From positions 186,001 through 250,000 of the forward strand of contig QCIH01000001.1 in assembly GCA_003216795.1 (NCBI GenBank): a stretch of 64,000 nucleotides of DNA, given 5' to 3'. Origin of the DNA: Prochlorococcus sp. AG-402-K16. GTDB lineage: Bacteria > Cyanobacteriota > Cyanobacteriia > PCC-6307 > Cyanobiaceae. A program made the position numbers and the translations under genes. This document shows, piece after piece, positions 19,365 to 41,749 of this stretch. A model generated the notes under the pieces. The model searched no databases and had not been told where the DNA came from. It saw only the letters and a program-made list of their open reading frames with translations. Numbering within the stretch: position 1 is the stretch's first letter; each line of letters begins with the position of its first letter.

Positions 19365-20753
19365 TTAAACCGCTTGAAGTTCTCTAGCTTTTATAAATGC
19401 TTTTTTAGTAGTTGTAGTTTTAGCATAATCATACGATTCAAGATGTGTTCTTAATGTATGCCCCATTGCATCAGCAACACTTCCCGCATCAATTCCTAAT
19501 TGATGACCTCTTAATGAATAAGAATGTCTAAAGCTATAACAACCAAGACTTTCACCCCTTTTAGCCATTAATGCTTTAAGAGAAATCCAACCCGCTTTCT
19601 GTTTTAACCATTTACCCATCTGATCACCAACACCCTCAACAGTTTTGCAATCTGGCATACATTGATAGGGAAGTTCTAATAGACCCGCTTTGTACAATCT
19701 GACTACTTCTTCATAATGAACATTGCCATCATTATCAACTAAATAAAGAGGTTCTAATATTCTTGGTTTTGTTACGCCCTGACCCGATCTTTTTTCATAC
19801 ATACACCAAAGTTCATCTTTTCTCTTTTTATAAACCAAGTGTCTTAACTCAATAGGTCGTAAACCAAAAACAGCACAAAGCTTCATTGCATTAACCCATT
19901 TTTTAGCAGCGATTATGTGATGCGGTTGCCCTATTTCTGTTGGTAGAGAATTTATTAAATTAACAAACTCTTGATCTTCTATTGATGCTTTTTTATTTTT
20001 AGCTTTTTTAGCTTTTTCAGATGGTCTTCCAATGTATTCTCTTAAGTCATCTGGTGGAAGCCAATGATTAGGATAAGTTTTCTTAGTAACGCAATATTTT
20101 AAAAAAGAAGCAAGATTTCTCACTCTTTGTTCTCTAGCTCTACCACCAAGTTCATAAGTTAATGGTTTTGGTGCAATATTATTTCTTGCCATAAAGTCAG
20201 TAACCTTTTCAATTCCATTTTTTGCACAAATTTCTAATAATTTATCTGCATTTATTGGAGCATCTTTGGTTTTTAATAAGTTAACTGCATAATCAATGAC
20301 AGGTTCATACTCTTTAGTCCAAGTTATATCTTTAATACCAGTTCCCATCTCTTTTTTATATTTTTCAAAATCTTCTTTAGCACCAACCCAATCATGAGAA
20401 TAAGTTAATTTAGGAGCTAATCCCGCACATACAGCAACAGCAGAATCAAAATCACCGCCATTATTAGCCATCTCTACATAGATATTCCTAACCCGCGTAA
20501 TAATATCTCCCATGTCTTGGGCAGAGTAAGAAAAAGGAATATTATTTTTCATAAGCTGTGCAGATCTCATCCCTTCACCAGTTCTGACCTCTAATCTTGC
20601 AAGTCCTCTATGTTCTCTAACAGTCCAACCCTTTGCAGTAGAAGACCTAATGGCCATCTTAAAACCATTTACCCATGCTTCATTATTTTTAAGTTTGGGC
20701 ATTAATTTGCGTACATATATGCACAATGTACGCAACTTGTACGCAAAATGCAA
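19365..20753 (-). CDS. Tyrosine recombinase/integrase of element A (start probably 20702)
   Basis: FGLRPIELRHL, SLGCYSFRHSYSLRGHQLGI, MGHTLRTHLESYDYA catalytic motifs; next to tRNA. Confidence 0.85.
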   Translation of the reverse strand: MHFAYKLRTLCIYVRKLMPKLKNNEAWVNGFKMAIRSSTAKGWTVREHRGLARLEVRTGEGMRSAQLMKNNIPFSYSAQDMGDIITRVRNIYVEMANNGGDFDSAVAVCAGLAPKLTYSHDWVGAKEDFEKYKKEMGTGIKDITWTKEYEPVIDYAVNLLKTKDAPINADKLLEICAKNGIEKVTDFMARNNIAPKPLTYELGGRAREQRVRNLASFLKYCVTKKTYPNHWLPPDDLREYIGRPSEKAKKAKNKKASIEDQEFVNLINSLPTEIGQPHHIIAAKKWVNAMKLCAVFGLRPIELRHLVYKKRKDELWCMYEKRSGQGVTKPRILEPLYLVDNDGNVHYEEVVRLYKAGLLELPYQCMPDCKTVEGVGDQMGKWLKQKAGWISLKALMAKRGESLGCYSFRHSYSLRGHQLGIDAGSVADAMGHTLRTHLESYDYAKTTTTKKAFIKARELQAV

Positions 20754-20915: not shown

Positions 20916-20989
20916 CGGGGCGTGGCGCAGCTTGGTAGCGCGGGTGCTTTGGGAGCACTAGGTCGCAGGTTCGAATCCTGTCGCCCCGA
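20916..20989 (+). tRNA. tRNA-Pro (anticodon TGG), intact
   Basis: CGGGGCG acceptor pairs with CGCCCCG; anticodon loop TTTGGGA; T-arm GCAGGTTCGAATCCTGT. Confidence 0.95.
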
Positions 20990-21013
20990 CTCAATCAAAT
21001 CCAAGTCATACTA

Positions 21014-22772: not shown

Positions 22773-22818
22773 GTGCTTTGGGAGCACTAGGTCGCAGGTT
22801 CGAATCCTGTCGCCCCGA
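22773..22818 (+). pseudogene. tRNA-Pro 3'-half remnant
   Basis: GTGCTTTGGGAGCACTAGGTCGCAGGTTCGAATCCTGTCGCCCCGA identical to tRNA 3' part. Confidence 0.95.
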
Positions 22819-23026
22819 TTGACTTCTCACGATTCTTAAATAGTCCTTGGGCGATCCCTGGGCGATCATTTGCTATACCTTGCATAGCTTTGCATACTGC
22901 ATCGCCCGCTAAAACAACTAAATAAGCAATATTAAACAGACTATTGCTCCAATACTAAAAATTAAGATCTACCCTTGCGAGTTAATAGTCTTTCAAAATA
23001 ATCATTTTTTCATTTTAAATAGGTTT

Positions 23027-23359
23027 TTATTTATTAAATTTAAAACCCGAACCACAAGAACTTTTTGTCGCGCCTTTTGGAGTACTAATCAAGAATCCTC
23101 CTCCGGATAAATCCTGATAATGATCAAGTGATAGTTCATCTAGTAAACTTTTTTGAGATTCTGGAGCGTAGACAGTTAAGCCATCAGTTCTTGCAATCGG
23201 AATTCCTGATTTTTCCCAGATATTAACTCTCAGAAACATCCATCCATCATCAAGAATATCAGGTTGCAAATATAGGAATATTTCTCCAGGTGTACCACGA
23301 TAAATTGATTGCCTGAGCAATTCATTTGAAGCAGCCTTGGTAATAGTTAAAGAACTCAA
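23027..23359 (-). CDS. IscA/HesB-like A-type protein
   Basis: LTITKAASNELLRQ ... FLISTPKGATKSSCGSGFKF. Confidence 0.6.
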   Translation of the reverse strand: MSSLTITKAASNELLRQSIYRGTPGEIFLYLQPDILDDGWMFLRVNIWEKSGIPIARTDGLTVYAPESQKSLLDELSLDHYQDLSGGGFLISTPKGATKSSCGSGFKFNK

Positions 23360-23499
23360 TTTTCAAATACACTTAGTACATAGATTAATTATTTTTTAAT
23401 TCAATAACAAGCATTCCATAGTGTTCTCACTTTATTAGCTGCGTAATTTCTCTGAATTTTTTATTTCCTCTCATAAGAAATATCTAAAAACAAAAACAA

Positions 23500-23521
23500 A
23501 AATGATTTTCATTTTCATTTT
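23500..23521. promoter_or_regulatory. Candidate Zur/Fur-type box between divergent genes
   Basis: AAATGATTTTCATTTTCATTTT; same 20-mer recurs at 39492. Confidence 0.55.
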
Positions 23522-23552
23522 GGTGTAAATTTTATACATCAGGTAGTTTTTT

Positions 23553-24335
23553 ATGAGTCAAACTTGGATAATATCAGGGCCTCCAGGATGCGGTAAGACA
23601 AGTTGGATACTTAATACTTTTAAGAATCACTCTGGAAATTGTGGTTATGTACGTCTTGGCGGATATTCAGAAATTAATTTAGAGCAAGCAATAAATTCAA
23701 AAATTGATTTTGCTTTTTTGAAAGATCAAATTCCTAATTTATTAGATTTGTCAAGTTCAAAATTGCCCTTAGAGGTAGAGAAAGAGAATATTTTGATTAT
23801 TATTGAATTTCCTCAATTTTTCATACCTAAATTTCAGGGTATTAGTGGTATTGATTTGAGAGTTATAAAAGAGCTTGAAATATATAATCTTCAACCAAAT
23901 AAATATTTGCATTTTGGCAGAGATCTAGAATTACCAATAAAGGATACTTTAGATTTTAAAGCAATTGAATCATGTAGTATTGACCTCAAAAAAAATATTT
24001 GGGATCCTGCAAGTTTAAATACTTTTTGGTTCGAATTAGTGAACGGTGCTTATGGAGACGTATATAGAGCAAAAGCATTAATGAACTTACCAGATGGTCG
24101 TTATATCTTGTTTAACTGGATATTGACTCAGAAAGGTTCTCAATATCAAACCTTAAATCAAGTTGCTCCTCTTAATGGAAGACCAGAAAGACACTCTGAA
24201 ATTGTCATACAGGGGAAAAACTTAAACTTCCAATTAATAAAATCAACTATCAATAATTGCCTTCTTAGTGATGCTGTTCTAGAGCATCATCAAGCCACAC
24301 TTAGAAATTCACAATTACAAACTTCTCGAAATTAA
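23553..24335 (+). CDS. CobW/COG0523-like P-loop GTPase
   Basis: TWIISGPPGCGKTSWILNTF. Confidence 0.65.
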   Translation: MSQTWIISGPPGCGKTSWILNTFKNHSGNCGYVRLGGYSEINLEQAINSKIDFAFLKDQIPNLLDLSSSKLPLEVEKENILIIIEFPQFFIPKFQGISGIDLRVIKELEIYNLQPNKYLHFGRDLELPIKDTLDFKAIESCSIDLKKNIWDPASLNTFWFELVNGAYGDVYRAKALMNLPDGRYILFNWILTQKGSQYQTLNQVAPLNGRPERHSEIVIQGKNLNFQLIKSTINNCLLSDAVLEHHQATLRNSQLQTSRN

Positions 24336-24341
24336 TTAAAA

Positions 24342-25157
24342 ATGAATCAAGCTGTTATTTCATGTTTACATGCAAATCTACCTGCAGTAGAAGCCGTATT
24401 AAAAGATATTGAATTACAAGGGATTACGAATATTACCTGCCTTGGAGATTTAGTAGGTTATGGTCCTCAACCTAATGAGGTTATTGAGTTAATCAAAGAG
24501 AAAAAAATTGCCACTTGTCAGGGTTGTTGGGACGAAGATGTAGTTGATGGATTAGATGCCTGCGATTGTAGTTACCCTTCTCAGATCGCTGAAAGGAGAG
24601 GTCATTTCGCTCATCAATGGACTACGGGAAAATTAACAAAAGAAAATAAGGATTTTTTAGCTAATTTACCCTATTCAATTCGTAAAGATAAATGTCTTTT
24701 TGTTCATGGTAGTCCTAATAGTCAACATGAATATCTGCTGCCCGATATGGATGCATTCGCAGCTCTTGAGAGAGTTGAAAATGCCAAAGCTGAGATTCTA
24801 TTTTGTGGACATACTCATCAACCTTATATACGTGAACTAGCAAATGGTTCAATTGCCGTAAAGGTCAAAAACAGTGGTTCGAAAGATATTCAAAAGAAAG
24901 AAATGAATTTGCCGATGCGAAGAATAGTAAATGCAGGTTCAGTGGGAGAGCCACGGCATGGAGGAACTAAAGCTACTTATGTGGTTTATAACGACATCAC
25001 TAATGACGTAAAAATTAGAGAAGTTGAATATGATATCGAACTTACCTGCAAAGCAATAATAAATGCTGGTCTTCCTCCGATTTTTGCATGGCGTTTAAAA
25101 AACGGATTTGAATTTGCCGAACGAGCTGAAGATGCTTCTCATGTTTGTGAAAGATGA
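24342..25157 (+). CDS. Metallophosphoesterase
   Basis: ISCLHANLPAVEAVL, CLGDLVGYGPQPNEV, FVHGSPN, GHTHQPY. Confidence 0.85.
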   Translation: MNQAVISCLHANLPAVEAVLKDIELQGITNITCLGDLVGYGPQPNEVIELIKEKKIATCQGCWDEDVVDGLDACDCSYPSQIAERRGHFAHQWTTGKLTKENKDFLANLPYSIRKDKCLFVHGSPNSQHEYLLPDMDAFAALERVENAKAEILFCGHTHQPYIRELANGSIAVKVKNSGSKDIQKKEMNLPMRRIVNAGSVGEPRHGGTKATYVVYNDITNDVKIREVEYDIELTCKAIINAGLPPIFAWRLKNGFEFAERAEDASHVCER

Positions 25158-25876
25158 TAGAACGCTGGGCACTTATAAGTGGGTTAAAAGGGGATCTAGA
25201 TACTTATGAACTTATTCAAAAAGATTTAAAAAAAACTCCTGGGAACATAACCCTCTTTGTTTTGGGGGATATGATAGGCCCTGAAAAAAACTGTAATAAA
25301 CTTCTACACAGATTAATTAATCCAAAAAGTAATGATTTACAACCATGGTGCATATATGGTTGGTGGGAAGAACAAATCCTCTTAGAAAGTGGTTACCGTG
25401 GCAATCAAAGAGCTGAAGCTTTGAGAATAAATAAAGGTGAAGAAGTGGTCAAATCTCTAATAAATGCTGTTGATAAATCATTTCTTGATTGGATAGCAGC
25501 ACTTCAATTTGGATTTGTTGAACTTGATTGTGGTTTAATTCACGGGAGCTCAAAAGATGTTGGCGACGATTTAACATTAGATACCCCGCCATTAACACTC
25601 CTGGATAGACTTACACGTCTTCAAGTAAACAGATTATTTACTGCGAGAAGTACACAACAATTTCATTTGGAATTAACAGAGGGGATTCTTAATTCGGAAG
25701 TACACGATTTAACCGGAAATCATAAGAAGGAGCAGAAGGTTCCTCAAAAAGCTGTCATTGGTGTTGGAGCAGGCAAAAATTATACTCTCTATGATGTAGG
25801 GACTGATAATACTCAATTCGTAAGGGCTGGATATCAATCAGAAAAGAAAAAAAATGGATTTGGATTACATTTTTAA
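25154..25876 (+). CDS. Metallophosphoesterase-like protein
   Basis: WALISGLKGDLDTYELIQKDL, FVLGDMIGPEKNC, LIHGSSKD. Confidence 0.65.
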   Translation: MIERWALISGLKGDLDTYELIQKDLKKTPGNITLFVLGDMIGPEKNCNKLLHRLINPKSNDLQPWCIYGWWEEQILLESGYRGNQRAEALRINKGEEVVKSLINAVDKSFLDWIAALQFGFVELDCGLIHGSSKDVGDDLTLDTPPLTLLDRLTRLQVNRLFTARSTQQFHLELTEGILNSEVHDLTGNHKKEQKVPQKAVIGVGAGKNYTLYDVGTDNTQFVRAGYQSEKKKNGFGLHF

Positions 25877-26041
25877 ACACTAGGTCGCAAGCGGGCGATC
25901 CTCGGGCGATCAAATGCTTAACTTTGCAACACTTTGCTGCATATAAGACAATTCTTGAGACTCATTTTGATAACAAATATTTGAAACTAAAGTCATAGCC
26001 TCACTTCGTTCTCATGGGTACTGTCGCAATTTGCTGATCGA

Positions 26042-26087
26042 GTGCTTTGGGAGCACTAGGTCGCAGGTTCGAATCCTGTCGCCCCGA
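26042..26087 (+). pseudogene. tRNA-Pro 3'-half remnant (left att of element B)
   Basis: Identical to tRNA 3' part. Confidence 0.95.
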
Positions 26088-26354
26088 TTGGGATTACAAA
26101 GATTGCTAATATTGCTCGTGGGAAAAATGTGGGAAAGAATATGGACAATAACGGACTAAAACTATTTAATTCTTAGGTTTTCCCACATCTTTCGGCTTGT
26201 GTGAGTTTTTCTTGTTGCAATAGCTCTAGTTCGTGTAATCATTAGTGGTATCAGGCGAATGCAGTAGAACAAAAACACACCTTGTTTCTAGTCTGGCTTT
26301 CCTTGTTAGCTCTATAACGTACGAGCTAGGTGTATTTAACTTCCTTTTAATTGA

Positions 26355-26597
26355 TTGCCTAACAACAGACCCACATTTAATAAAGGTAAAAAAGTCACTC
26401 GTTCTAATATGACTAGACACGACTCTTACGGTTGTGCCTTAGATTTATTAGCCTTCGAAGAAGGTGGTATGACTATGAAAGCCGAAAAAGATTGGGAAGA
26501 TACTGTTGCTATTGCCTATCGGGAACTAAAGGGAAATAAATCACTAAGGAATGACCTTAAGAAACAATACGGACACGAAAAGTCCTTTAACTCTTAA
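26355..26597 (+). CDS. Small hypothetical protein
   Basis: ORF 80 aa. Confidence 0.4.
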   Translation: MPNNRPTFNKGKKVTRSNMTRHDSYGCALDLLAFEEGGMTMKAEKDWEDTVAIAYRELKGNKSLRNDLKKQYGHEKSFNS

Positions 26598-26835
26598 AAA
26601 CAGAGTATTTACGGAGAAAGCACAAGAACTATTAGGCGTTGGTAGAACTTTCCTTATGGAAAAGAAAGCTAATGGCGAATTTATAGTAGGTATTCATTGG
26701 GTTTATTCTTCAGGACGACCAAAAAGTCGCATTTTGTGGGATATTCCAGCAATACAGAAGTGGCAAGAAGAAAAGTCTATAGAGCACTTAGAAGCAGCTA
26801 CTAAAACTGCTGAAAATATAGAAGTTTTTGCGTAG
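26551..26835 (+). CDS. Small DNA-binding/excisionase-like protein
   Basis: FTEKAQELLGVGRTFLMEKKANGEFIVGIHWVYSSGRPKSRILWDIPAIQKW; positional counterpart of 5682 ORF. Confidence 0.55.
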   Translation: MTLRNNTDTKSPLTLKNRVFTEKAQELLGVGRTFLMEKKANGEFIVGIHWVYSSGRPKSRILWDIPAIQKWQEEKSIEHLEAATKTAENIEVFA

Positions 26836-26846
26836 GGGGTAGAAAA

Positions 26847-27215
26847 ATGACAAATAAAAAAACCACCTCTGGCAAAGGTGGCTCTAATAACGAAAGTAGT
26901 CCTAATATAGCCCCTACTTGGGACTTTAAAAGAGTACAGGAAGAAAGTCAGGCACTTTTTGACACATATAAAAATATGCTCGAAAAGCCAGAAGCAAAGG
27001 AGCTTTTACTGCGTGAGTTATGCGAACAAAGGGCAGTAATGTACCAACTTATAGAAGCGTTTTCTATTAATAGAGAAGTTAGTTCTGGAGCAGCTAATAA
27101 CGCATCTAAAGCGGTTAAGTTGTACGAAGAATTGCTAAATCTAACAAGATCACAAGGCAAGAATTTTTCCAAAAGAATAGAAAAATTAGAAGATTACGAA
27201 AGCAGGGGGCTTTGA
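26847..27215 (+). CDS. Hypothetical protein
   Basis: ORF 122 aa, MTNKKTTSGKGG start. Confidence 0.5.
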   Translation: MTNKKTTSGKGGSNNESSPNIAPTWDFKRVQEESQALFDTYKNMLEKPEAKELLLRELCEQRAVMYQLIEAFSINREVSSGAANNASKAVKLYEELLNLTRSQGKNFSKRIEKLEDYESRGL

Positions 27216-27219
27216 TGAT

Positions 27220-27807
27220 ATGCAAAGCTCAAAAAGAAATAACCCCTGTCCTGTCTGCGGTAGGACAAAAGACAGCGATTGCCGTTGGGATAATGACGTA
27301 ATTTTTTGCCATTGCGGAAGTAGTTTTGCACCGCCTAGCCATTTAAAAATTGGCGATATTATCCGTCTTGACGGTAAAGATTGGGCATTAGTAAAAACTA
27401 ACTCTGGGCATACTGGTCTATGTCATGTATTTAAACCGCATAGACATATAGAGAAAACTTACACACCTACACCAAGACAAAAGCAACAAGGCCAAGATAG
27501 AGAACAATATTTATTTAAAGAATCAGTTAAAGCGGTCGAAGAATATATAAAGCTAGCTAACGCTGCATTAGAGGTAATTAACTACGAATATTGCAATTTA
27601 AAGCAAATTAAGGAATCAAAAGCATTAATTAATAGAGCTTTTGACGAAGGTAAGGAACTAAGAGAAGTGCTAGTAGGTGTTAGACGGTTTAACAAAAATA
27701 TTGAGGAATTTATTGAATTATTTGACGAAAAATATCGCCCTATTAAATACCAAAAAAAAGCATCTGACGAATTTTGTTGGAATCACTTAGGAGAAATAGA
27801 CGAATGA
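27220..27807 (+). CDS. Zinc-ribbon protein, possibly primase-related
   Basis: NPCPVCGRTKDSDCRWDNDVIFCHCGSSF. Confidence 0.55.
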   Translation: MQSSKRNNPCPVCGRTKDSDCRWDNDVIFCHCGSSFAPPSHLKIGDIIRLDGKDWALVKTNSGHTGLCHVFKPHRHIEKTYTPTPRQKQQGQDREQYLFKESVKAVEEYIKLANAALEVINYEYCNLKQIKESKALINRAFDEGKELREVLVGVRRFNKNIEEFIELFDEKYRPIKYQKKASDEFCWNHLGEIDE

Positions 27808-29099
27808 GCTACTTAGATCGTGCCCATCTTCCCCCAGAAGAAAAACTAGCAGCTTTAAAAAGTGCTTATGCAGAACACTTAGACCCTGTAAAACCTGACC
27901 CAATGGCAGAAAAGCTATTGCAGTTAGACGAAGAAGTCGACAAGTTTTTCTTGCCTGACTCAATAATTAAGCCTACTGACCGATACATATATATAAGAGA
28001 CTTTTCTAAAGCTATCGGTATTAAGTTAACCGAAAAGGAAATCCACCAAAAATTATGGCAGGGTCGTAAACGGTTCGAAGGTGTTGCAGAAGGTTTTGAC
28101 CCGCACGTTCCTATAGAAGTACCAAAGGTCGATTGGGCTTGGGACGGTTTATGGCGTAGCAGTACTCAAAACTTATTAGTGTCATTGCCTAAATGTGGCA
28201 AAACTACATTGGCAATAGATGCAATCGCACATTGGCATAGAGGTAATTCAGAATTTTTAGGTCATAGATTTATTGGAAAATGTCCACCGTTAATAATTGT
28301 TGGAACTGATATGGCTCTCTCTGATTGGTCGCCTTTACTATGTCGTTTTGGTCTGGCTAAAAAGATAGATGACGACCACATAGACCTATTAGACCCAATA
28401 GTTAAATTATTTACTGCGGATACACCTATTCATTTAGATAGGGACGGACTAGAAAACTTAGTTAATTTAGCTGCGGAAAATGTAGGGGCTTTATGGTTAT
28501 TCGATAGTTATTCGAAGTTAACAGCACCGTTAGGATTACAGGAATCTAGTGCGGAAATAAGTTACCCAATGCAAGACTTAAACGAATATTTAAGTCCATA
28601 TAAAGCAACGCAAGTGATTATCCACCATAGCGGAAAGCAAAAGGGTGCTAGTCCTGTAATGGCTTCCAGAGGTAGCACTTCTTTAACTGCTGCGGTTAGT
28701 CAGATTATTAGCCTTAAATGGTTTAACAGAGAAGAAGATCGAAACGACAAAAGGATATTAATAGAAACAGAAGGACGGTCGACAGATGTTTCTTTATTAA
28801 TAAGCCAAGAATCGCAGGGCTTTATTTTGGAAGGAACTGTAGAAGAAGAAATAGAAAAGCAAAAATATAACGAAAAATTAGAAAATTTAACTGATAATCA
28901 ATACGAAGTATTAGAGCTTATAACGACCAGTAGTAAAGAAGGCATAGAAATAACTACTAAAGACTTAAAAGAACAACTAGGTCTAAGTAGTAAAACAGCC
29001 TTAAGAACGTGCAGGGCTTTAGTTAAAAAGTCCTTTATTCTGGAACGTGTAGGTAGTAACGATAAGGGAAAAATATCATTTTTTAAGTTAAAACCTTAA
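27774..29099 (+). CDS. RepA-like AAA/RecA-fold ATPase with C-terminal wHTH
   Basis: NLLVSLPKCGKTTLAIDAIAHW, LWLFDSYSKL, ATQVIIHHSGKQKG; start possibly 27804-27806. Confidence 0.75.
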   Translation: MLESLRRNRRMSYLDRAHLPPEEKLAALKSAYAEHLDPVKPDPMAEKLLQLDEEVDKFFLPDSIIKPTDRYIYIRDFSKAIGIKLTEKEIHQKLWQGRKRFEGVAEGFDPHVPIEVPKVDWAWDGLWRSSTQNLLVSLPKCGKTTLAIDAIAHWHRGNSEFLGHRFIGKCPPLIIVGTDMALSDWSPLLCRFGLAKKIDDDHIDLLDPIVKLFTADTPIHLDRDGLENLVNLAAENVGALWLFDSYSKLTAPLGLQESSAEISYPMQDLNEYLSPYKATQVIIHHSGKQKGASPVMASRGSTSLTAAVSQIISLKWFNREEDRNDKRILIETEGRSTDVSLLISQESQGFILEGTVEEEIEKQKYNEKLENLTDNQYEVLELITTSSKEGIEITTKDLKEQLGLSSKTALRTCRALVKKSFILERVGSNDKGKISFFKLKP

Positions 29100-29457
29100 G
29101 TGGGTGTCCCTAGTGGGTCGGGGGTTTTGTGTCCCTAGTGTCTTTAGCTTAACGATATTACTAAGGACGCTATACCCACAAAGGGCGTGGGACACTAAGG
29201 GCATACCTTAACTAATGGCACTAAAGACGCTAAAGACATCTAAGTAATAACTAGCATCTTTAATTATGTTAAGAAACTGTAATAATTAAATAGGTGCAAA
29301 TAAGCTGCAATTAGTGCAATTTAGACGCTTTTAGTGGACATTTAATGTTAATAAGAATTAAATACAGACATCTACGAACAAGTCGCTAATTACACCTAAT
29401 AAATATCAACAATTAGCAAGAAATTAGGCTCAAAATTATATAAGTTACATAAATATT
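29100..29457. promoter_or_regulatory. Repeat-rich noncoding region, candidate replication origin or packaging site
   Basis: GTGTCCCTAGTG-type repeats on both strands and repeated AGACGCT. Confidence 0.35.
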
Positions 29458-29592
29458 ATGCGTAGACCGCATAAGACAGATAAAGACTTATCTAACAGAC
29501 CTAAACCCTCTGAAGATGCGTTGCAATCTGCACAATATAGACGCTACTTGCGTGACCAATTAGAAAAACAACTCGGACATTATCGAGACTAA
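29458..29592 (+). CDS. Small hypothetical protein upstream of capsid gene (44 aa)
   Basis: Read directly: MRRPHKTDKDLSNRPKPSEDALQSAQYRRYLRDQLEKQLGHYRD*; ends 2 nt before capsid ORF. Confidence 0.5.
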   Translation: MRRPHKTDKDLSNRPKPSEDALQSAQYRRYLRDQLEKQLGHYRD

Positions 29593-29594
29593 TT

Positions 29595-31226
29595 ATGGAA
29601 ACAATTAACGAAGTAACTCTGCAAAGACGCTATCTATCTCTAATTGATGAGACAGAAGAAGATCAGGCAGACACTTTAAAGTTTTCTTTTTCTAGTGAAA
29701 AGCCTGTAAGTCGCTATGCCTTTGACGAAGTTTTAGACCATAGCGAAGCAAGCGTAGACATGACCCGACTTAATGCGGGTGCTCCTTTATTGTTTAACCA
29801 CAATCCAGACAAGCCTATAGGTGTAGTCCAAAGAGCTTGGTTAGATGATCGCAAAGGATATGCACGAATTAAGTGGGGCACTTCCCAATTAGCGGAAGAA
29901 GTACGCAAGGACGTAGAAAACGGAATCCTTAAATCAATTTCGGTCGGTTATCGAATTAACGAAACAGACACCGAAGAAAAGTACGGAATCGTAAGGGCTA
30001 CAAGTTGGACACCTTATGAGCTCTCGGTTGTAACTATCCCCGCAGATCATTCGATCGGAATAGGGCGGTCGTTAGTAGAGCAAAAACCAGAAAAACAACC
30101 AAAAAAGGAATTTTTAACTCAAAAAACAATGTCACAAGCAATTTCGACTATTAATGACGGTTGGACAGAGTACGAAAGAGAATCTAGTCAATTTTCTATA
30201 GTTCGTGCTTTACAGGCAAGTGTTAGCGGTAATTGGTCTAATGCAGGACGTGAGAGAGAAGTTCAGCAAGAACTAGCTCGTCTTAATGGCAGAGAATCAC
30301 AAGGAATCTTTGTACCAGAAAACGGTTGGGCAAAGAGAGACTATACAAAAGGGTCATCTACTCAAGGCCAAAAGTTAATTGGTACAGATCATTTAGCAGA
30401 CCGTTTTGTAGATGTTCTTAGAGCAAGATTAGTAGTCGCAGAAATGGGAGCTACTATGTTGCCTGGACTTGTTAGTGATGTCTCAATTCCTAGAAGAACT
30501 GCGGGCGGAACTGCGTACTTTGTAGCGGAAGCGGGTAACGTAACCGAGTCGACAGGTACATTCGACAATATTTCTATGTCGCCAAAAGTAATGGGGGCAT
30601 TTAGTCAGTTTTCTTATTTAATGCAGCTACAAGCTACACCAGAAATAGAAGAACTTATTAGACAAGACTTTATTGCTTTACTTGCACAAAAATTAGACCA
30701 AGTTGCTATTAATGGCGGTGGTTCTAACGAGCCTAACGGAATACTACAAACTAGCGGAATTGGCAGCGTAGTTATCGGTACAAATGGCGGGGCGATCACA
30801 TTAGATAAGATGCTCGACCTTAAGCAAACAGTTGCAGTAGATAACGCAGACCTTCCAACTGCGGGCTTCCTAACTAATACAAAAGTAGAGAACGCTTTAA
30901 GCAAATTAAAAGACGGAAATAGCCAATACTTATTAAGTCCTTACGGTGGCGAAATAGGTCAGCAACAACTAGCTAATAGAACATTTATGGTTAGCAACAA
31001 CGTGCCAAGCAACCTTACAAAAGGAAGCTCTAGCGGTGTATGTTCAGCAGCTATTTACGGTAACTTCTCTGACTTATTAATAGGTATGTTTGGAAGTCTT
31101 GAACTACTTGTAGATCCTTACACACAATTCCAATCTGGCGGTGTAGGCATTAGAGCTTTACAAGGTGTCGATATTGCAGTTCGTCACGCTGAATCCTTCG
31201 GAGCAATCCTAGACATAACTACATAA
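29595..31226 (+). CDS. HK97-type prohead protease fused to major capsid protein
   Basis: N-term: MTRLNAGAPLLFNHNPDKPIGVVQRAWLDDRKGYARIKW, SISVGYRI, WTPYELSVVTIPAD; C-term HK97 MCP-like (VSIPRRTAGGTAYFVAEAG, LDQVAINGGGSNEPNGILQTSG). Confidence 0.85.
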   Translation: METINEVTLQRRYLSLIDETEEDQADTLKFSFSSEKPVSRYAFDEVLDHSEASVDMTRLNAGAPLLFNHNPDKPIGVVQRAWLDDRKGYARIKWGTSQLAEEVRKDVENGILKSISVGYRINETDTEEKYGIVRATSWTPYELSVVTIPADHSIGIGRSLVEQKPEKQPKKEFLTQKTMSQAISTINDGWTEYERESSQFSIVRALQASVSGNWSNAGREREVQQELARLNGRESQGIFVPENGWAKRDYTKGSSTQGQKLIGTDHLADRFVDVLRARLVVAEMGATMLPGLVSDVSIPRRTAGGTAYFVAEAGNVTESTGTFDNISMSPKVMGAFSQFSYLMQLQATPEIEELIRQDFIALLAQKLDQVAINGGGSNEPNGILQTSGIGSVVIGTNGGAITLDKMLDLKQTVAVDNADLPTAGFLTNTKVENALSKLKDGNSQYLLSPYGGEIGQQQLANRTFMVSNNVPSNLTKGSSSGVCSAAIYGNFSDLLIGMFGSLELLVDPYTQFQSGGVGIRALQGVDIAVRHAESFGAILDITT

Positions 31227-31569
31227 GTAGTTAACCAGAGGGGTTAACGTATTGGGTGTTTTGTTTCTTCGCACCCTTCTTCCATAGTTCGATCGGGCAG
31301 TAGAACGAATATGTTAATCCCTCTATAAATCCCATTCTCAATAAGAATCTATAGGCCATATTTTGACACCCTATATATGGAAAATAGGTTCTTTTTCTCT
31401 GTCTGTGTGTGGGTAATTTCGAGCCCCAAAATTTTTCTAGGCACAGCGTCCATATCTAGTGGACACTTTCAATTCTCAATAAGGCAAAATAAGCAAAAAT
31501 AAGGGCATATTATACCGCATAAATCCAGTTAGCAACTACTTTCTTATGTATCTCTAAATTGGTGTAAAA

Positions 31570-31803
31570 ATGAAACCAGTTAATGTAAAACTTACAGTTA
31601 GTCAGGCAGCAAAAGAGTTAGGTTACAGTTCCAGATCGACACTTTATAACCTGATAAAAAAAGGCTATTTAAATAATTATTTATGGGTAGATGATAAGGG
31701 CAGAAAATACTTAGAAATGAACCCTGTAGGTCGTAGATCACTTAAGGCTTACTTGCCCGCAATTATTAAATGGCGATCGGATTGCGTACACCTAAAAAAA
31801 TAA
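31570..31803 (+). CDS. Small HTH protein, homologous to 8389 in element A
   Basis: LTVSQAAKELGYSSRSTLYNLIKKGYLNNYLWVDDKGRKYLEM. Confidence 0.6.
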   Translation: MKPVNVKLTVSQAAKELGYSSRSTLYNLIKKGYLNNYLWVDDKGRKYLEMNPVGRRSLKAYLPAIIKWRSDCVHLKK

Positions 31804-31880
31804 CGTCCACTATATGAGAAGTTGACGCTAAAAAATTATCGTGCTTTCAGATGACCCACGAATATAGATAAAAAAAGAAC

Positions 31881-32636
31881 CTAGTACTTTATTGCCATAG
31901 CCCAATGTGGGTATGTTCCGTAAGATTTTTCTCTAATAAGTTGTAATTTTCTGCTATTTATTTTGACTACTATTCCGTCTGTTGGATAGTTTGCAAATAG
32001 CTTTTTATCTAGCCATTGCTTTCTATACATTTCTAGTTGAGTTGTAAAGTTAAGCGTTTTATATTCTGGAATCGTAAAGCCTAATTTTTTTAAATATTTA
32101 AGCGAATCGTGTTGGTTAAGTTTTCCGTTAATTATCTGGAAAGCACAAAAGCTAAGATGATCGCTTTTAGAATCAGCAGCCCTAAGATAACCGCCCGCCT
32201 GTCTTTGAGAATAACTAGGTCGTTCATATTCTGACGGATTAAAAAGTTCGCCCCTTATCTGGGTAACACCTGTAATTTTTATCTTAGTTGGTACGTCTGG
32301 AATAGCTGCAATTTTATTAGTTAAGTCTTGCCCTTTTCTACTAATAGCTTTTTCTAATAGGCCATCACGATATTGCAAAGCGATCGCACAACCGTCTATT
32401 TTTGGTTCGACTATTAATCTAGTATCGGGCAATAAACCTTCTATAAATTCTTCTATCTGATCTTTAGGTAGAGAAGGTAAAGGCAAAGATTTTTTATTCG
32501 TAAAGTAATCGCAATTAGGGTCTATTCGTAATAAGTTGCGTTCTAACTGGTCGAATTGTTTATCTGTAATCAGGGCATTTCCTGACCGATAATTTTCGTC
32601 ATACCATTTAATTCGTTCTTCTAAGTATGTCGTCAT
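31881..32636 (-). CDS. Standalone NAD+-dependent DNA ligase adenylation domain
   Basis: EPKIDGCAIAL, FCAFQII, DGIVVKINS, HWAMAIKY at C-terminus; 4-nt overlap with integrase. Confidence 0.8.
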   Translation of the reverse strand: MTTYLEERIKWYDENYRSGNALITDKQFDQLERNLLRIDPNCDYFTNKKSLPLPSLPKDQIEEFIEGLLPDTRLIVEPKIDGCAIALQYRDGLLEKAISRKGQDLTNKIAAIPDVPTKIKITGVTQIRGELFNPSEYERPSYSQRQAGGYLRAADSKSDHLSFCAFQIINGKLNQHDSLKYLKKLGFTIPEYKTLNFTTQLEMYRKQWLDKKLFANYPTDGIVVKINSRKLQLIREKSYGTYPHWAMAIKY

Positions 32637-33868
32637 GCTGCTAACTGTTTTGCAAACTTGTCGCTTATTCCATCTGGAATAAATCTTGCGTAATTTTGTT
32701 GATGCACTTCGGAAGTATGACCCATAACAAAACTAATATCTTTTATAGATAGTCCTAACTCTGTAGACCGTTCGTGGGCTACTTTTGCGAACCTATGTCT
32801 AAAGGCATAAGGCACGAGTTCTTCTTTTAGTTTTTCTGCTTGTTTTTTAAATTTAAGCCAAGTTTTATTACGTCTTAATCTTGTACCTAATGCTTCCCCG
32901 CCTTTTCCGTCTTGTCCTAAAGGTGGCAGTTCTTCTTCCAAAGATACACGTTCTAATAAATTCCAATCAATGCAACCCTGTCCGTCTTTTACATATAAAG
33001 GAGCTAATTTTCTAGGTTCTGTCTTTTGACCTTTAACACCGCCCATAGACTTTTCATACATATTCCATAGTTCGCCATCTTTAACGACTAGATGTCTTAG
33101 TTCCTCTGGTCTAAGTCCATAAACTGCTAGTAATTGATACGCAAATTGCCATTTTTTGTCCGTTTCTGACGCTATTAGCTCCAATATCTGCGAATCTGTC
33201 AGGGCGTAGCCTATTCTTTTCTTTTTTAATGTTTCTGTAATTCTTACAGGTGCATAGATATTAGATAATTTTCCCCTTAAAACTGCATAATCTAGGAATT
33301 TTTGTAATGCTCGTCTTGCTATCTGTCTCGATCTACTACCTTGTTCCCATTGCTTAAGTGCTTTAAGCATTAAATCTTCGCCATCAATAGGCTTTTTTTT
33401 ACTGGTTAATAGTTCCTTAGTTTTAGTTAATACAGGCTTGTAAGATTTTTCCCAAGTAGTCTTACTAACTGTTGGTAGAAACTCTCTAAAGTCTTTAATA
33501 GTTTCGTCTAGGTTTATATCTGATTTAGAGCTAGCAGTATTAACAACCTCGCAAGACTTAGCCAAAGAAAATTTGCCTGTATCTGAATAAAAGTTCTTAT
33601 ATATTTCTATGATTCTGCGGGCTGCATTAAATAGACCTTTTTTGTCCCATTCATATTCCAATATTCTTGATTGCTTTTTACCTTCGTGTAAAACTTCTAA
33701 CTTTACGCTTCCTCTACTTTCCGATATATACCAAGCAGCCCCAGAGTGCATTTCTGCCCGCATAGCCTGTCTAGCAGCTTTAACCCAATCGTTCTTATGT
33801 GTAGTAACTGGCATGAGCACTAGGTCATTTAATATATCTATTGTGGGAAAAACGTGGGAAAAAGTCAA
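32633..33868 (-). CDS. Tyrosine recombinase/integrase of element B (start may be M at ~33814)
   Basis: YGLRPEELRHLVV, VPYAFRHRFAKVAHER, MGHTSEVHQQNYARF. Confidence 0.87.
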   Translation of the reverse strand: MTFSHVFPTIDILNDLVLMPVTTHKNDWVKAARQAMRAEMHSGAAWYISESRGSVKLEVLHEGKKQSRILEYEWDKKGLFNAARRIIEIYKNFYSDTGKFSLAKSCEVVNTASSKSDINLDETIKDFREFLPTVSKTTWEKSYKPVLTKTKELLTSKKKPIDGEDLMLKALKQWEQGSRSRQIARRALQKFLDYAVLRGKLSNIYAPVRITETLKKKRIGYALTDSQILELIASETDKKWQFAYQLLAVYGLRPEELRHLVVKDGELWNMYEKSMGGVKGQKTEPRKLAPLYVKDGQGCIDWNLLERVSLEEELPPLGQDGKGGEALGTRLRRNKTWLKFKKQAEKLKEELVPYAFRHRFAKVAHERSTELGLSIKDISFVMGHTSEVHQQNYARFIPDGISDKFAKQLAA

Positions 33869-33963
33869 CCTCTAGTGAACATTTACGAACAATACAAAAC
33901 AGTAGAATATTGCTACTACTGTTGTTATGACTAAAAAGTCTAAATATAGCTTAATTTGACCAG

Positions 33964-34009
33964 TTGCTTTGGGAGCACTAGGTCGCAGGTTCGAATCCTG
34001 TCGCCCCGA
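33964..34009 (+). pseudogene. tRNA-Pro 3'-half remnant
   Basis: TTGCTTTGGGAGCACTAGGTCGCAGGTTCGAATCCTGTCGCCCCGA. Confidence 0.95.
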
Positions 34010-34032
34010 CTCTTAAAAACCAAGTCATACTA

Positions 34033-34058
34033 GAGAGTTACCCAAACTCTCTTTTTTT
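34033..34058 (+). terminator. Duplicated tRNA-downstream terminator
   Basis: GAGAGTtacccaaACTCTCTTTTTTT. Confidence 0.7.
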
Positions 34059-34131
34059 ATGTTTATGTCTCAAAGTGAGAAAGGGGAGCTGTAGGGGGAG
34101 CTCACAGGATGTACTTTGATGTAAATTGTGC

Positions 34132-34380
34132 CTAGAAATAGCTCCTGAAGATACTTGTTTTCTTCCACCCTTCATCCAGTAGTTGTTTGTATTCCTTACG
34201 AGCTGCTTCGATAGTTTCAACTCTGCTTCCTTTCATAACTGGTTTACTACTTCTCTTATAAACACACCCATAGGAAATCATCATTGCATCAATACTAGGA
34301 CTAGGGTTTGATACATCTTCAAATGGTTCAAATACTTTTATTCTTGATCTGTCTTTATTTATAAGAGTAAATTTTTCCAT
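34132..34380 (-). CDS. DUF1651-like protein
   Basis: C-terminal IEAARKEYKQLLDEGWKK shared with 38557 ORF. Confidence 0.55.
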   Translation of the reverse strand: MEKFTLINKDRSRIKVFEPFEDVSNPSPSIDAMMISYGCVYKRSSKPVMKGSRVETIEAARKEYKQLLDEGWKKTSIFRSYF

Positions 34381-34603
34381 TACTACTTATATGTATTGAG
34401 TAATGCTATGTAAATTCCCAACAATATGAATATTGACATGCCTACACCGATAGCTTCATTTGGTTGATTATTCCAAAGCTCCTGAAAATATCCCATAAAA
34501 AAATTCACTCTCTAGTAAAGAATACTAAAGGAAATAATTATGGAACGAATAGAAAAGTATTACGAAGAAATTGGAAAAATAATAAAAGATTTAACTTTCT
34601 CTT

Positions 34604-34840
34604 ATGTGGACAAACAAGGTGAGCTTTGGGATGATAGAAAAAAGAATGGGAGAAAATTTGATTACTAAAGTGGATGATACTTCTTGGCAGAAAGAGTTCT
34701 TGGAGATGAAGTTACATTCAACCTCAGATGTAAGACTTCTAATGCAAGGTGCAAAAGGATTCAGAGAGGCTTGGCACTTAGGTACTTTGCATGAAGAATA
34801 CAAAATCATGAAACGTAGAGAGCACCAACAACAGCAGTAA
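34604..34840 (+). CDS. Hypothetical protein
   Basis: ORF 78 aa. Confidence 0.35.
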   Translation: MWTNKVSFGMIEKRMGENLITKVDDTSWQKEFLEMKLHSTSDVRLLMQGAKGFREAWHLGTLHEEYKIMKRREHQQQQ

Positions 34841-35220
34841 CTAAATAACGAATACCAAAATACAAAAAGCCAAATTAAGTATCAAACTTAAGGTTTTAGA
34901 AGTAAATTTCATAAACAAAAAAAGGGCGGCAGATTCGCCCTAAATAAAAAAGCTTGATAATCCCCATCACCCAGCTCTTTTAAAAATCCTAGCACTATAT
35001 ATGGTGTTTGTAAGTATTAAAAATTACCTATCAATGGGGTTGTTTGTTCCTTTTTAATTTGTCATGATAGAGATCCCCATCATCCAGGCTCGCAAGGGTC
35101 TTTTTTTTTGCCTGTAAAAACGATTCAAAAAGCAACATATACATATAACAGTCTCTCTAGATACACAAAAAATCTATCACAAAGTATTAGGATAATTTTA
35201 CTAAAGGTAAGGTATTCAAT

Positions 35221-35475
35221 ATGTCTCTAAAGAATCAAACTAATGATATTTATCCATGGGATTATCAAATAGGAGATGATAATTTCCAATTAGAACCTTG
35301 GATTCTAGAGAAAGGGAAAGAATTTGTGTCTATTGAGAAAAATATAGATAACAAAGGTTTTTTTTACTTACAAAAGAATAATGAGAAACGTCTTTCTCTT
35401 AACTCTTTACAAATAAAATCAACTTATAATCAATTGATGAATTTTGGTTATAAGTTACGAATAAGCAATCTCTAA
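35221..35475 (+). CDS. Hypothetical protein
   Basis: ORF 84 aa. Confidence 0.4.
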   Translation: MSLKNQTNDIYPWDYQIGDDNFQLEPWILEKGKEFVSIEKNIDNKGFFYLQKNNEKRLSLNSLQIKSTYNQLMNFGYKLRISNL

Positions 35476-35525
35476 TTTTCTTTTGATTTATAGTAATAAT
35501 CTTCAGAATCGCGAAGTAATAATAA

Positions 35526-35813
35526 CTAATTATTTCTATTAAATTTATTGTATTTTTTATTGTTGGGTCTGTCTCTTTTCTCAGCTTCGTTGACCCTTAT
35601 CTCTCTTCCCATCCATTCAACATCTTGAAGATCATCAATAGCTTTTTTTTCCGAATTATAATCATTTAAATCTACGAAAGCGAAACCTCTTTTTCTTCCT
35701 GTTTCTCTATCTAAAGGTAAATAACATTTTTTAACTACTCCATAATTACTAAAAAGTTGTTCAAGATCTGCAACCTCAGTTTCCCAAGATAAATTTCCAA
35801 TAAAAATAGTCAT
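35526..35813 (-). CDS. RRM RNA-binding protein (cyanobacterial Rbp type)
   Basis: IFIGNLSWETEVADLEQLFSNYG ... RGFAFVDL. Confidence 0.9.
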   Translation of the reverse strand: MTIFIGNLSWETEVADLEQLFSNYGVVKKCYLPLDRETGRKRGFAFVDLNDYNSEKKAIDDLQDVEWMGREIRVNEAEKRDRPNNKKYNKFNRNN

Positions 35814-35942
35814 TTCATTAATTCTTTATGAAGGTCAAATAGATGCTTAGGACTAGTGAAGTTATCTCCAATCAAATGCTTCCATTGTTCTTACTCTAAC
35901 TCTTTATTCGCTATGCAACGAGTAGAAAAACTTACATATATA

Positions 35943-36284
35943 TTACAAACCCATTGCTCTTCTCAGCTTTGCAGCCTCATCTAAACCTTCCATAATTGTA
36001 AATGTAGAATTTTCAGTAGCTTCTTTTCTTAGCTTTGAAAGTTCTCTATATTCTTCAGATTCATAAGCTTCGACCGCATCTTTCATGGAAGGGAATTCAC
36101 AAATAACGGCTAAATCAGCATCTTCTGTCCTCTCTTTTCCTTGAGGCTCTGTATCTTTTGCAAAGACTTGGCCTCCAACCTCTTTCAGCCATGGTTCAAC
36201 TTTATTTACATATTTATCAAATAAATCTTGATTAATTATTTTTGCAGTCGATATCCAATAACCTTTAGCTCCTCTTTTATTCAT
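35943..36284 (-). CDS. DUF1330-like protein
   Basis: GYWISTAKIINQDLFDKYVNKVEPWLKEVGGQVFAKD. Confidence 0.7.
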   Translation of the reverse strand: MNKRGAKGYWISTAKIINQDLFDKYVNKVEPWLKEVGGQVFAKDTEPQGKERTEDADLAVICEFPSMKDAVEAYESEEYRELSKLRKEATENSTFTIMEGLDEAAKLRRAMGL

Positions 36285-36672
36285 TTATTTATCTATGTAT
36301 TTCAAATAGACTACATCATTTCGTGTTGATCAAATTTATTTTTTAACTTTGCTGCTTTATGGATTAATCCAACTGCTTCTTTTCTTCCTGTCGCTTGTTG
36401 CGCCTGGCGCATTAATTCAGCATATTTTTTGTTTAGTTTTTTCATTTGTTTGTTTGTTTAGTGTCAAAAACGCAGGCTTAATAAGTGATTGTCATTTTTT
36501 GAATTAGCTCTATTGAATAGATCAACACAACTTGTTTATCAGAAAGTATTTGACTCTTGCAGGTGGGATTCTTTTTCAAAAATTCTTTAGCTGGTCAATA
36601 TTGCTTAGTCTTATCTCTACCTGAGATTAATTAACAATAACACAAGAACAAAAATAGCTATTTGAAAGATGC

Positions 36673-36966
36673 TTAACTCTCTAAATACCTGCAAATAAAT
36701 TCAAAGTTTTCGTAGTCCATAGTTATTGTCTTAAACCTATCTGTTTCTATTTTTCTATTCCCAAAATTCTGCAATTCAACTTTAATAGATGGATGTTTTA
36801 TTGAGTACGATGGAGTAAAGCCAATACGCTTTGCACGTTTATGCAAATCCTTTTTAAGTCGGGGATCACAGCCACAGAACAAGATAGTTGGCCTAGAAGA
36901 ATTACCTATGGAAGCATCAGTAATTCTTTGTTCTAAATCGGATGCAATATTTTCGAGAACTTTCAT
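36673..36966 (-). CDS. Hypothetical protein
   Basis: ORF 97 aa. Confidence 0.4.
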   Translation of the reverse strand: MKVLENIASDLEQRITDASIGNSSRPTILFCGCDPRLKKDLHKRAKRIGFTPSYSIKHPSIKVELQNFGNRKIETDRFKTITMDYENFEFICRYLES

Positions 36967-37562
36967 TTAAATTTTTTTACTTCGAGAGACATAATTAATA
37001 ACCAATATTATTTCTAGGGTTAGTTATGTAAATTATTAAATTTAGAACGTAATTAGCAGGCAAGTTTAATGGTTTCAAAAGTAGCAAAGCAATTCCTTGA
37101 GTTAAGTTAAATCCTTTTTCTTCCATAAATAAAAGAAGGGGTTCATTTATACATTGTAAATAGATTGTCAATTAATAAATTGGTCAAACGGTCTTGAATC
37201 AACAACTTAGTAACTTAATTAAATTATTAAAAACTAGTATTTATTTAGTAACTTATCGGATATGAAAATAATTTTAAAAAGTGAAACTTCACTAGGTCTA
37301 GAATCCTACGAAGAACTAGGTTTTAATTCCGAAGAGGAACTTGAATTAGAAATTTCTAAACTTACTAAATTTAGACCTGAATTTGATACTAATTTGGAAT
37401 AAGTTGATAGCGGTTCAAAAAGTAAAGGTTTAATTTAATATTATCTATTTTTTTATTATTGGTTTTAATTTGATTCTCCCAAGTTAATTGCTCAACAACC
37501 ATTAAAAAAGTCAGCCTGTATCCCTACTAGCTGACTTTCATGACGATGTAAGTTTTGAAAAA

Positions 37563-37670
37563 CTATACGAATGTATTTGATGTTGTGATGCTTAAAACAA
37601 CTGCAACAAAGAATATGTAAGGAACCACCTTGAGGGGTACATATCCTTGTTTTTTAGATATAAAATCCAT
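37563..37670 (-). CDS. Small membrane protein downstream of hli (35 aa)
   Basis: Read directly: MDFISKKQGYVPLKVVPYIFFVAVVLSITTSNTFV*; starts next to hli stop. Confidence 0.55.
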   Translation of the reverse strand: MDFISKKQGYVPLKVVPYIFFVAVVLSITTSNTFV

Positions 37671-37805
37671 TTATACAAATCCCGGAATAATTTGTCCAGT
37701 TGTTAGGTATGCGCCAATAAGAGCAATAAAGCCAATCATCGCGAATCTACCATTGAGCTTCTCAGCTACAATTTTTTCCTTCTCAACTGTTTTTGTTTCG
37801 TTCAT
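37671..37805 (-). CDS. hli: High-light-inducible protein (44 aa, absent from ORF track)
   Basis: Read directly: MNETKTVEKEKIVAEKLNGRFAMIGFIALIGAYLTTGQIIPGFV*; E-x-x-N-G-R-x-A-M-I-G motif. Confidence 0.85.
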   Translation of the reverse strand: MNETKTVEKEKIVAEKLNGRFAMIGFIALIGAYLTTGQIIPGFV

Positions 37806-38391
37806 TTGTTTGGTTGGTTGTTTAGCTAAGATGCTTCCTAATGCAATCTTTAAACAAATCTAATAATAGAAAAATATAAATGTGAGTATAATTACTTACT
37901 CTCATACCCTCCATAAGCTGTACTTATTAGGCTTTTTTAGATTTTCTCAATTTTAAAGGAACAATTATTCAATAAAAGTTAAAAAGAGAATTAATAGCTA
38001 TTAATAAATAAAGGATATTAATGAAACAAAAAATCAATATAAATTTTTTAGAAAAATACATATCTCATTTTGTAAATGATATTGAATATAAAAGGATTAC
38101 AAAAAAATTAGAGGAATATGATTTAATGGCTGACGTTGATGATCAAAGATTTCATCACTTTTGCTCTTAAATTTAAGTGTATGGTCCAGAGTTAAAAACA
38201 TTATTTCTGCGACCTAGTTAACATGAGGCACTAGGTCGCTCAGGGGGGAGCTAAAGGGGGAGCTGAGGCTACATATTTTGTATATAGAACTATATACTTT
38301 GTACAATATTGAGACTCAAACTCGTTCCGCTCTCTTGGTTATAACCTAGTCATAGCTTAGTTTTGATTTATAATCTCAAATAAAAGATCGA

Positions 38392-38437
38392 GTGCTTTGG
38401 GAGCACTAGGTCGCAGGTTCGAATCCTGTCGCCCCGA
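38392..38437 (+). pseudogene. tRNA-Pro 3'-half remnant
   Basis: GTGCTTTGGGAGCACTAGGTCGCAGGTTCGAATCCTGTCGCCCCGA. Confidence 0.95.
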
Positions 38438-40312: not shown

Positions 40313-41743
40313 TTATTTTTGTTGAGCTAAAGGATCAAAAATATCGCTAATAATATTGAACACAGATGCAATTATTGGTTTATCCCTTAATTTAATCTTG
40401 CTACTTACTGCCATTCCAGATCTTAACTCATCAAAACTAAACTTTCCTTTAATTTCTGACGCTATAAGCTTTATTTCTGCAATATATGTTCTTCGATTAA
40501 CTCCAGATGTGGTGTCAGTTGAGACCGTGGGTGAAATACTAAAAACTTCAGCGATAATTCCTCCAAAGTCGTCTGAGGGGAAAGCGTCAACTTCAACTAT
40601 AGCTTCCATTCCAACTTGAATCGGGGCACTAACTTTTGAAGGAATCGATGCTCTTGCTATTAATTCATTATCAGGAACAACAGTAATAACAACATCATTT
40701 GCCATTATTCTTTCCCCTGGACTTTGATATTTTATGTTTTGTATAAATCCCTTTACTGGGGATACTATTTTAAATCTATTATTTTTTGCCTCAAGTTCTA
40801 AAATGAGAGTAGAGAGTTGTTCTAATTGCTCTGAGTTTTGAAAAAGAATATTATCTTTTTCTAATAGATTTGCATTATAATTTTTTTCTAACTGGTTTAA
40901 TTCTAAATTAGTTTGCATGTACTGAACATCAGATATGGCGCCAGCCTTATTCAATAATTCATATTTTTCAAGAAGAATTTTTTTAAAGTTTATTTCCTCA
41001 CTTAACTGTCCTAATTTTAGATCATAAGATTCAAAAAGGTTTCTCCTTTGATTTTGCGCATATTCAAGTCTTTTTCTAGCACCATTCAGCCTGGCTTTAG
41101 TTTCATCATCTTCATAAATTAATAACAAAGTATCTTTTTCCACATACTGATTAGTTTTAACAAAAAGCTCTGTGATTTTTCCAGGGTCCATTGCACTTAT
41201 CTTAACTTCAGGCGTAATCGTTGTTAATTCTCCTGTAAGAATAATTGTTTCTTCAATGGTAGTAAAAATAGACCAAATTATAATTGATATAGAACCTGTA
41301 CTTAATGTCCAAATAAAGATTCTAGACCAAACCGGAGGTGGAGGTAGAAGCGTAACATCTGCATTAATATTTTCTGAATTACCGAAATTACTTAAAACAC
41401 TCGATACTCTATCTTTAATGAAAACTTTGGGGTTTTTTATAAAAAATTTTATTTTTTTTAAACGAGTTTTTTTAAATAAAAAATCCTTGTATGAATTCAG
41501 TAATTGGTAAAATCTTTGCTTTTTTATAATTAAATTGCTCTTTTTATAGTAAAAATCAATAAAAGAATATTTTTGCTTATTTAAATTAGAAATCAAAGAT
41601 CTGCTTAATTTAAATTTCCCAATAATTTTGAATTTTCTTATTGAGATTAAGTTATGTAATTTTTTGTTTTTAAAAAAAAAAGAAACTTTTTTCTTAATTT
41701 GTTTTTTCCTTAAAATTTTTTTAATTTTTTTATAAAAATTCAT
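40313..41743 (-). CDS. HlyD-family type I secretion membrane fusion protein
   Basis: TGELTTITPEVKISAMDPGKITELFVKTNQYVEKDTLLLIYEDDE, coiled coil, C-terminal MFP domain. Confidence 0.85.
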   Translation of the reverse strand: MNFYKKIKKILRKKQIKKKVSFFFKNKKLHNLISIRKFKIIGKFKLSRSLISNLNKQKYSFIDFYYKKSNLIIKKQRFYQLLNSYKDFLFKKTRLKKIKFFIKNPKVFIKDRVSSVLSNFGNSENINADVTLLPPPPVWSRIFIWTLSTGSISIIIWSIFTTIEETIILTGELTTITPEVKISAMDPGKITELFVKTNQYVEKDTLLLIYEDDETKARLNGARKRLEYAQNQRRNLFESYDLKLGQLSEEINFKKILLEKYELLNKAGAISDVQYMQTNLELNQLEKNYNANLLEKDNILFQNSEQLEQLSTLILELEAKNNRFKIVSPVKGFIQNIKYQSPGERIMANDVVITVVPDNELIARASIPSKVSAPIQVGMEAIVEVDAFPSDDFGGIIAEVFSISPTVSTDTTSGVNRRTYIAEIKLIASEIKGKFSFDELRSGMAVSSKIKLRDKPIIASVFNIISDIFDPLAQQK

Positions 41744-41749
41744 TAAATT

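Follow-up and report, generated by a model that had tools for sequence, protein, structure and literature searches.

A candidate phage satellite with its own capsid gene in a Prochlorococcus tRNA-Pro array

An element with its own integrase and an intact gene for a major capsid protein (MCP), here called element B, sits between tRNA-Pro(TGG) repeats in the genome of Prochlorococcus sp. AG-402-K16. In our view element B is probably a phage satellite in integrated form, which would make its own shell, perhaps a smaller head, and be supplied with portal, terminase and tail by a helper, a putative phage on which the element most likely depends. The window analysed here, a stretch of 64,000 nucleotides, lies in a 1.67-Mb genome of 51 contigs, and its nearest related loci are those of Prochlorococcus.

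Borders and genomic setting

The last 45 bases of the tRNA-Pro(TGG) gene at 20916-20990 are repeated exactly at 22774-22818, 26043-26087, 33965-34009 and 38393-38437, and the presence of exact 45-mers at five sites identifies them as attachment (att) repeats rather than chance matches. The array contains four tandem units, of which element B is the third (Table 1). An earlier note on this DNA had drawn the right border at 33963, which loses the attR repeat; the true border is 34009/34010. What the same note took for several tRNAs is a single complete tRNA-Pro gene accompanied by four 3' fragments.

Table 1 Features of element B and its tRNA-Pro array (window coordinates)
Feature	Coordinates	Strand	Remarks
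Complete tRNA-Pro(TGG)	20916-20990		Intact gene of the array
Left attachment site	26043..26087	+	45-bp tRNA-Pro(TGG) 3' end, common to element B and the preceding unit
Element B	26088..34009	.	Span between identical 45-bp repeats; 7,922 bp once excised
Small ORF, 80 aa	26355..26597	+	Conserved in G103 element (L028:6268-6537); no family
Excisionase-like HTH protein, 94 aa	26551..26835	+	phrog_539 E=0.006 (weak); homologue in L028
122-aa protein	26847..27215	+	No function assigned; similar-sized protein at same place in relatives
Zinc-ribbon protein, 195 aa	27220..27807	+	CPVC...CHCG motif; homologues in L019, L028, L031
RepA-type AAA_25 ATPase, 441 aa	27774..29099	+	C-terminal winged helix; PF13481 1.9e-10; phrog_30286 1.5e-67
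Candidate replication origin	29100..29380	.	Non-coding, short direct repeats just after repA
44-aa ORF	29458..29592	+	Directly 5' of capsid gene; in frame in 4 relatives (alignment)
Fused S78 prohead protease and HK97 major capsid protein, 543 aa	29595..31226	+	Short linker; PF04586, PF05065, phrog_617
Hairpin	31237..31322	+	Directly 3' of capsid gene; z=-3.5
HTH_17 DNA-binding protein, 77 aa	31570..31803	+	PF12728 4.9e-6; AlpA/Xis-like
NAD-dependent DNA ligase adenylation protein, 251 aa	31881..32636	-	PF01653 8.5e-24; LigA structures
Tyrosine integrase, 411 aa	32633..33868	-	phrog_1 2.3e-17; R/H/R/H/Y positions conserved
Right attachment site	33965..34009	+	45-bp tRNA-Pro 3' end

The units flanking element B have no recombinase. 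The preceding one (22819-26087) is a cargo unit encoding a CobW_C-like protein and a calcineurin-like phosphoesterase, with a possible second; the following one (34010-38437) encodes an RRM protein and a DUF1330 protein, and its 82-aa ORF (34132-34380) is nearly identical to an ORF (L023:10685-10933) within a capsid element of genome G024. Outside the array, a second tyrosine recombinase of the element B integrase family (31% identity) is encoded on the minus strand at 19365-20753, about 160 bp before the intact tRNA-Pro gene. Also outside it, positions 40313-58167 hold genes for an HlyD-like protein and an ABC exporter and a 4,164-aa ORF, which together probably represent type I secretion of a giant protein.

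Gene content

Pfam, PHROG and motif evidence bore out the genes previously proposed for the element, namely an integrase, an Xis-like HTH protein, a zinc-ribbon protein, a RepA-like ATPase and a protease-MCP fusion, and added the overlooked 251-aa ligase adenylation protein, the HTH protein at 31570-31803 and the small conserved ORFs at 26355 and 29458. The zinc-ribbon protein gave no significant model in the Pfam search. The ligase protein has the NAD-binding and adenylation parts and no OB fold, and is conserved in five elements; its gene shares 4 nt with the recombinase gene and stays in place when a serine recombinase substitutes for the tyrosine recombinase (L019:12686-13441). An internal ATG at 33814 offers an alternative start for the integrase. 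Its repeats make the non-coding stretch after repA a candidate replication origin, and relatives carry different repeats at the matching place.

A second non-coding stretch, 31227-31570, is strongly conserved and includes a hairpin of about 17 bp, the stem of which is kept in relatives with different letters. RNAalifold reported no covariation for this hairpin, but it misplaced one arm of the window sequence; with the arms paired by hand, every sequence forms the full stem with two-sided changes, in a comparison informed by only about two lineages. The stretch is a candidate packaging site, terminator or regulatory RNA.

Capsid protein

Residues 38-152 of the capsid fusion match the caudovirus prohead protease (PF04586, 3.3e-9) and residues 266-535 the HK97 capsid family (PF05065, 5.9e-39; phrog_617, 4e-117). 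The likely catalytic residues His69, Ser116 and Glu142 are present in 30/30 aligned proteins, and the protein has both marks of an HK97-type capsid, a Phage_capsid domain and the prohead protease active site. A profile built from eight relatives matches the solved capsid of the marine siphophage R4C (8GTA, 4.5e-44), a T=7 shell with 415 MCP copies (PMC10276861). The earlier note had held that its reading would fall if the MCP-like domain failed to match HK97 folds; the Pfam and 8GTA matches instead agree with the HK97 family. In the solved structure the R4C chain starts to align at about profile position 257, near which the satellite MCP is therefore presumably cleaved. An AlphaFold prediction of the MCP from five input sequences was of low confidence (pLDDT 35.8).

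The MCP gene is intact and under purifying selection: comparison with the MCP of Prochlorococcus MIT 9302 gave dS 0.69, dN 0.081 and dN/dS 0.116. The protease-MCP fusion is not new, since the nearest phages have the same one. The linker between its two parts, taken as the stretch that separates the last protease anchor from the capsid N-arm anchor, was measured in 20 relatives and 10 phages and spans 33-46 aa in 19/20 satellite-clade proteins and 101-166 aa in the 10 phages, with an intermediate length of 83 aa in the TerS-bearing relative L077. In HK97 the corresponding stretch is the delta domain, which acts as a scaffold. A tree built with the linker omitted split the 20 cyanobacterial MCPs from the 10 phage MCPs with branch support of 100/100.

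Packaging genes

The previous statement that no terminase, portal or tail genes are visible held up, as Pfam and PHROG HMM searches of all element B proteins returned no match to any of these; neither TerS nor a recognised packaging site was found in the element. The 195-aa zinc-ribbon protein is the only ORF product above 130 aa in element B that lacks an assigned family, so that size rules out an overlooked portal or TerL. Element B is accordingly not a complete prophage, which would have terminase, portal and tail genes.

PHROG scans around relatives covered 163 ORFs (the 25 commonest of 45 families and the 25 commonest of 32). No packaging family occurred among the 25 commonest of 32 families for ORFs of Prochlorococcus relatives, and the only packaging matches among the matches listed for the 163 neighbouring ORFs were a TerL encoded on the opposite strand and a portal-like protein, both in the Synechococcus-like element L074 (genome G451). 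The 371-aa portal-like protein was not counted, since its match covered just part of a long profile and it had no match in Pfam. TerS lies near the MCP in the IMG/VR contig L032 (phrog_57, 8.4e-27) and in L077 (7e-21), which links the capsid family to packaging. In a midpoint-rooted MCP tree all three elements branch close to the base of the satellite clade, which makes it a reasonable, if unproven, reading that packaging genes were lost on the way to the Prochlorococcus elements.

The whole host genome has no other PF05065, and Pfam searches of it with working controls found no PF04860 portal and no PF05876 terminase; a helper with portal and terminase of those types must therefore come from outside. 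The TerL and portal proteins of S-LBS1, used as queries against 20 genomes in a search that had no positive control, gave no match.

Related elements and mobility

A single-protein search found the MCP in 14/198 relatives and a profile search (E<=1e-3) in 54/398 genomes of the family, the latter count including many fragments. Many relatives, drawn from Prochlorococcus and Synechococcus-like genomes, have MCP fragments that contain stops; full-length MCPs occur in at least nine Prochlorococcus and at least nine other genomes. The nearest elements are those of Prochlorococcus MIT 9302 and AG-347-B23, with 89-90% MCP identity. Nearby tRNAs are mostly Pro-TGG, with Ala-GGC in three cases and Ser-TGA at the MIT 9302 and AG-347-B23 loci. 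Genes usually follow the order Xis-like, small protein, zinc-ribbon, RepA, MCP and HTH, with ligase and integrase on the opposite strand; in the MIT 9302 element, a 618-aa large serine recombinase (PF00239/PF07508) replaces the integrase at the same place behind the ligase gene. On one contig of genome G094, about 14 kb separate two different capsid-bearing elements (L026/L027), whose MCPs are about 50% and about 48% identical to that of element B.

Scanning IMG/VR with the single MCP sequence gave no match, but an alignment-based scan did find relatives. The two ends of IMG/VR contig L031 (8,725 bp) overlap perfectly over 99 bp and close it to a circle of 8,626 bp, which carries the genes of element B minus the ligase in similar order and no packaging or tail genes. 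A tRNA-Pro 3' end occurs once inside this contig (about 7121-7165, minus strand), directly before the integrase. An integrated copy would have the site at both ends, so this single internal att, in a contig closed elsewhere, indicates an excised circle or a head-to-tail concatemer. Mobility of the element B family is thus supported by a circular relative known from its contig sequence.

Satellite model and alternatives

We envisage that infection by a helper would lead the integrase and Xis-like protein to excise element B, and that RepA would replicate the circle from the repeat region beside repA. The element would then build a shell from its own protease-MCP, which helper portal, terminase and tail proteins would open, fill and tail. 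The short linker, at the site of the built-in scaffold of HK97-type capsids, may shift assembly to a smaller head holding about one genome unit; such a head, of about 8 kb, would be T=3 or less by published size models, and it would exclude helper DNA. Allometry gives about 11.8 kbp for T=3 (95% range 8.1-17.1) and about 8.1 kbp for T~2.33 (PMC7762592), and volume scaling from R4C (T=7, 36.3 kb) puts a T=3 head at about 10 kb. T=3 or slightly less would thus suit a load of one unit (7.9-8.6 kb), as a matter of arithmetic and not as evidence of head size; P4 has a T=4 head despite its 11.6 kb (PMC7762592), and PICMIs are reported to have no capsid-remodelling genes (PMC10803314).

The satellite proposed earlier, with a perhaps resized capsid of its own and borrowed packaging and tails, thus gains on mobility, through the circular excised relative, and the short linker fits the guess of resizing; helper borrowing, capsid formation and capsid size are what we infer. 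As a tentative and rather doubtful history, a picocyanobacterial satellite lineage may have acquired one capsid precursor, cut most of the built-in scaffold and shed its packaging genes.

Alternatively, the capsid protein might be an interference weapon that co-assembles with or poisons phage heads and so protects the cell, with element B spreading via vesicles or generalised transduction. Defence through capsid interference is known in satellites, and this counts in favour, as does the lack of TerS, TerL and portal in element B. We nevertheless think it unlikely, given that the protease active site and the full maturation layout are retained, that the MCP is paired with TerS in two relatives and that no phage MCP close enough for co-assembly is known, all being below 38% identity. 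The same pairing in L032 and L077, and the strongly conserved non-coding region after the MCP, would suit an element that directs packaging itself: the HTH_17 protein, which could alternatively be a reduced TerS, or the 122-aa protein would go unrecognised as such and steer the helper TerL near the capsid gene, for example to 31227-31570. The HTH matches, however, are weak, excisionase- or AlpA-like and without the TerS C-terminal part, and we regard this account too as improbable.

Absence of portal, terminase and tails, with MCP fragments bearing stops in many relatives, could also describe a worn-down prophage remnant whose capsid gene survived by chance. That reading was rejected on dN/dS (0.116) and the intact MCP copies; the compact gene order shared by many species, the intact integrase and att sites and the excised circular relative further make it very improbable. 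Still harder to credit is an encapsulin-like or storage compartment serving the cell, rather than a DNA container. HK97-fold shells without portals do exist, but the gene travels with a mobile element and retains the prohead protease, whereas we know of no encapsulin that has one.

Comparison with known systems

Satellite tycheposons of Prochlorococcus were reportedly described by Hackl et al. in Cell in 2023. Tycheposons are presented, in two papers that cite that work (PMC10872708, PMC11389934), as tRNA-flanked islands of Prochlorococcus with a tyrosine recombinase and tandem units, some of them proposed viral satellites. Element B has a tRNA site with tRNA-derived repeats, a tyrosine recombinase and a Prochlorococcus host, and in these three respects it matches satellite tycheposons as the citing papers describe them, in line with a comparison made before; its MIT 9302 relative departs from them in carrying a serine recombinase instead. 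A further mark of tycheposons is that their recombinase falls in a specific deep-branching clade.

The other comparator offered, capsid-forming PICIs, proved a poor one. They and the Streptomyces satellites MulchRoom and MiniFlayer encode an MCP, as element B does, and capsid-forming PICIs also share the head protease. Both groups, however, encode portal, connector/adapter, TerS and TerL (PMC10690885), none of which element B has, and lacking portal, connectors and terminases it is not a capsid-forming PICI. Nor is it a TerS-type PICI, which redirects helper packaging with its own TerS, a gene found here in L032 and L077. P4, SaPI and PLE resemble element B in having an integrase, replication genes and presumed smaller heads, but they use dedicated proteins to resize or hijack the capsids of their helpers and are not known to encode an MCP. 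The nearest fused protease-MCPs (34-38% identity to that of element B) belong to the small marine siphophages S-LBS1, S-CBS1/3 and the roseophages CRP and R4C, which, unlike element B, are complete phages of 29-36 kb with linkers of 101-128 aa; in S-LBS1 and R4C a portal adjoins the MCP. Element B can also be likened, by description, to VEIMEs, integrase-bearing elements found as marine virion DNA (PMC10690885).

Known capsid-encoding satellites thus bring the whole head-and-packaging set and element B only the shell, which would make it a clean case of foreign portal and terminase fitted to a satellite-made head, and of scaffold trimming as a setter of head size. Published models remark on the puzzling absence of tailed phages with T=1 or T=3 heads (PMC7762592), a gap for which an 8-kb unit that encodes its own MCP is a direct candidate. 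Its hosts are among the ocean's most abundant photosynthetic cells, in which such elements move genes between islands.
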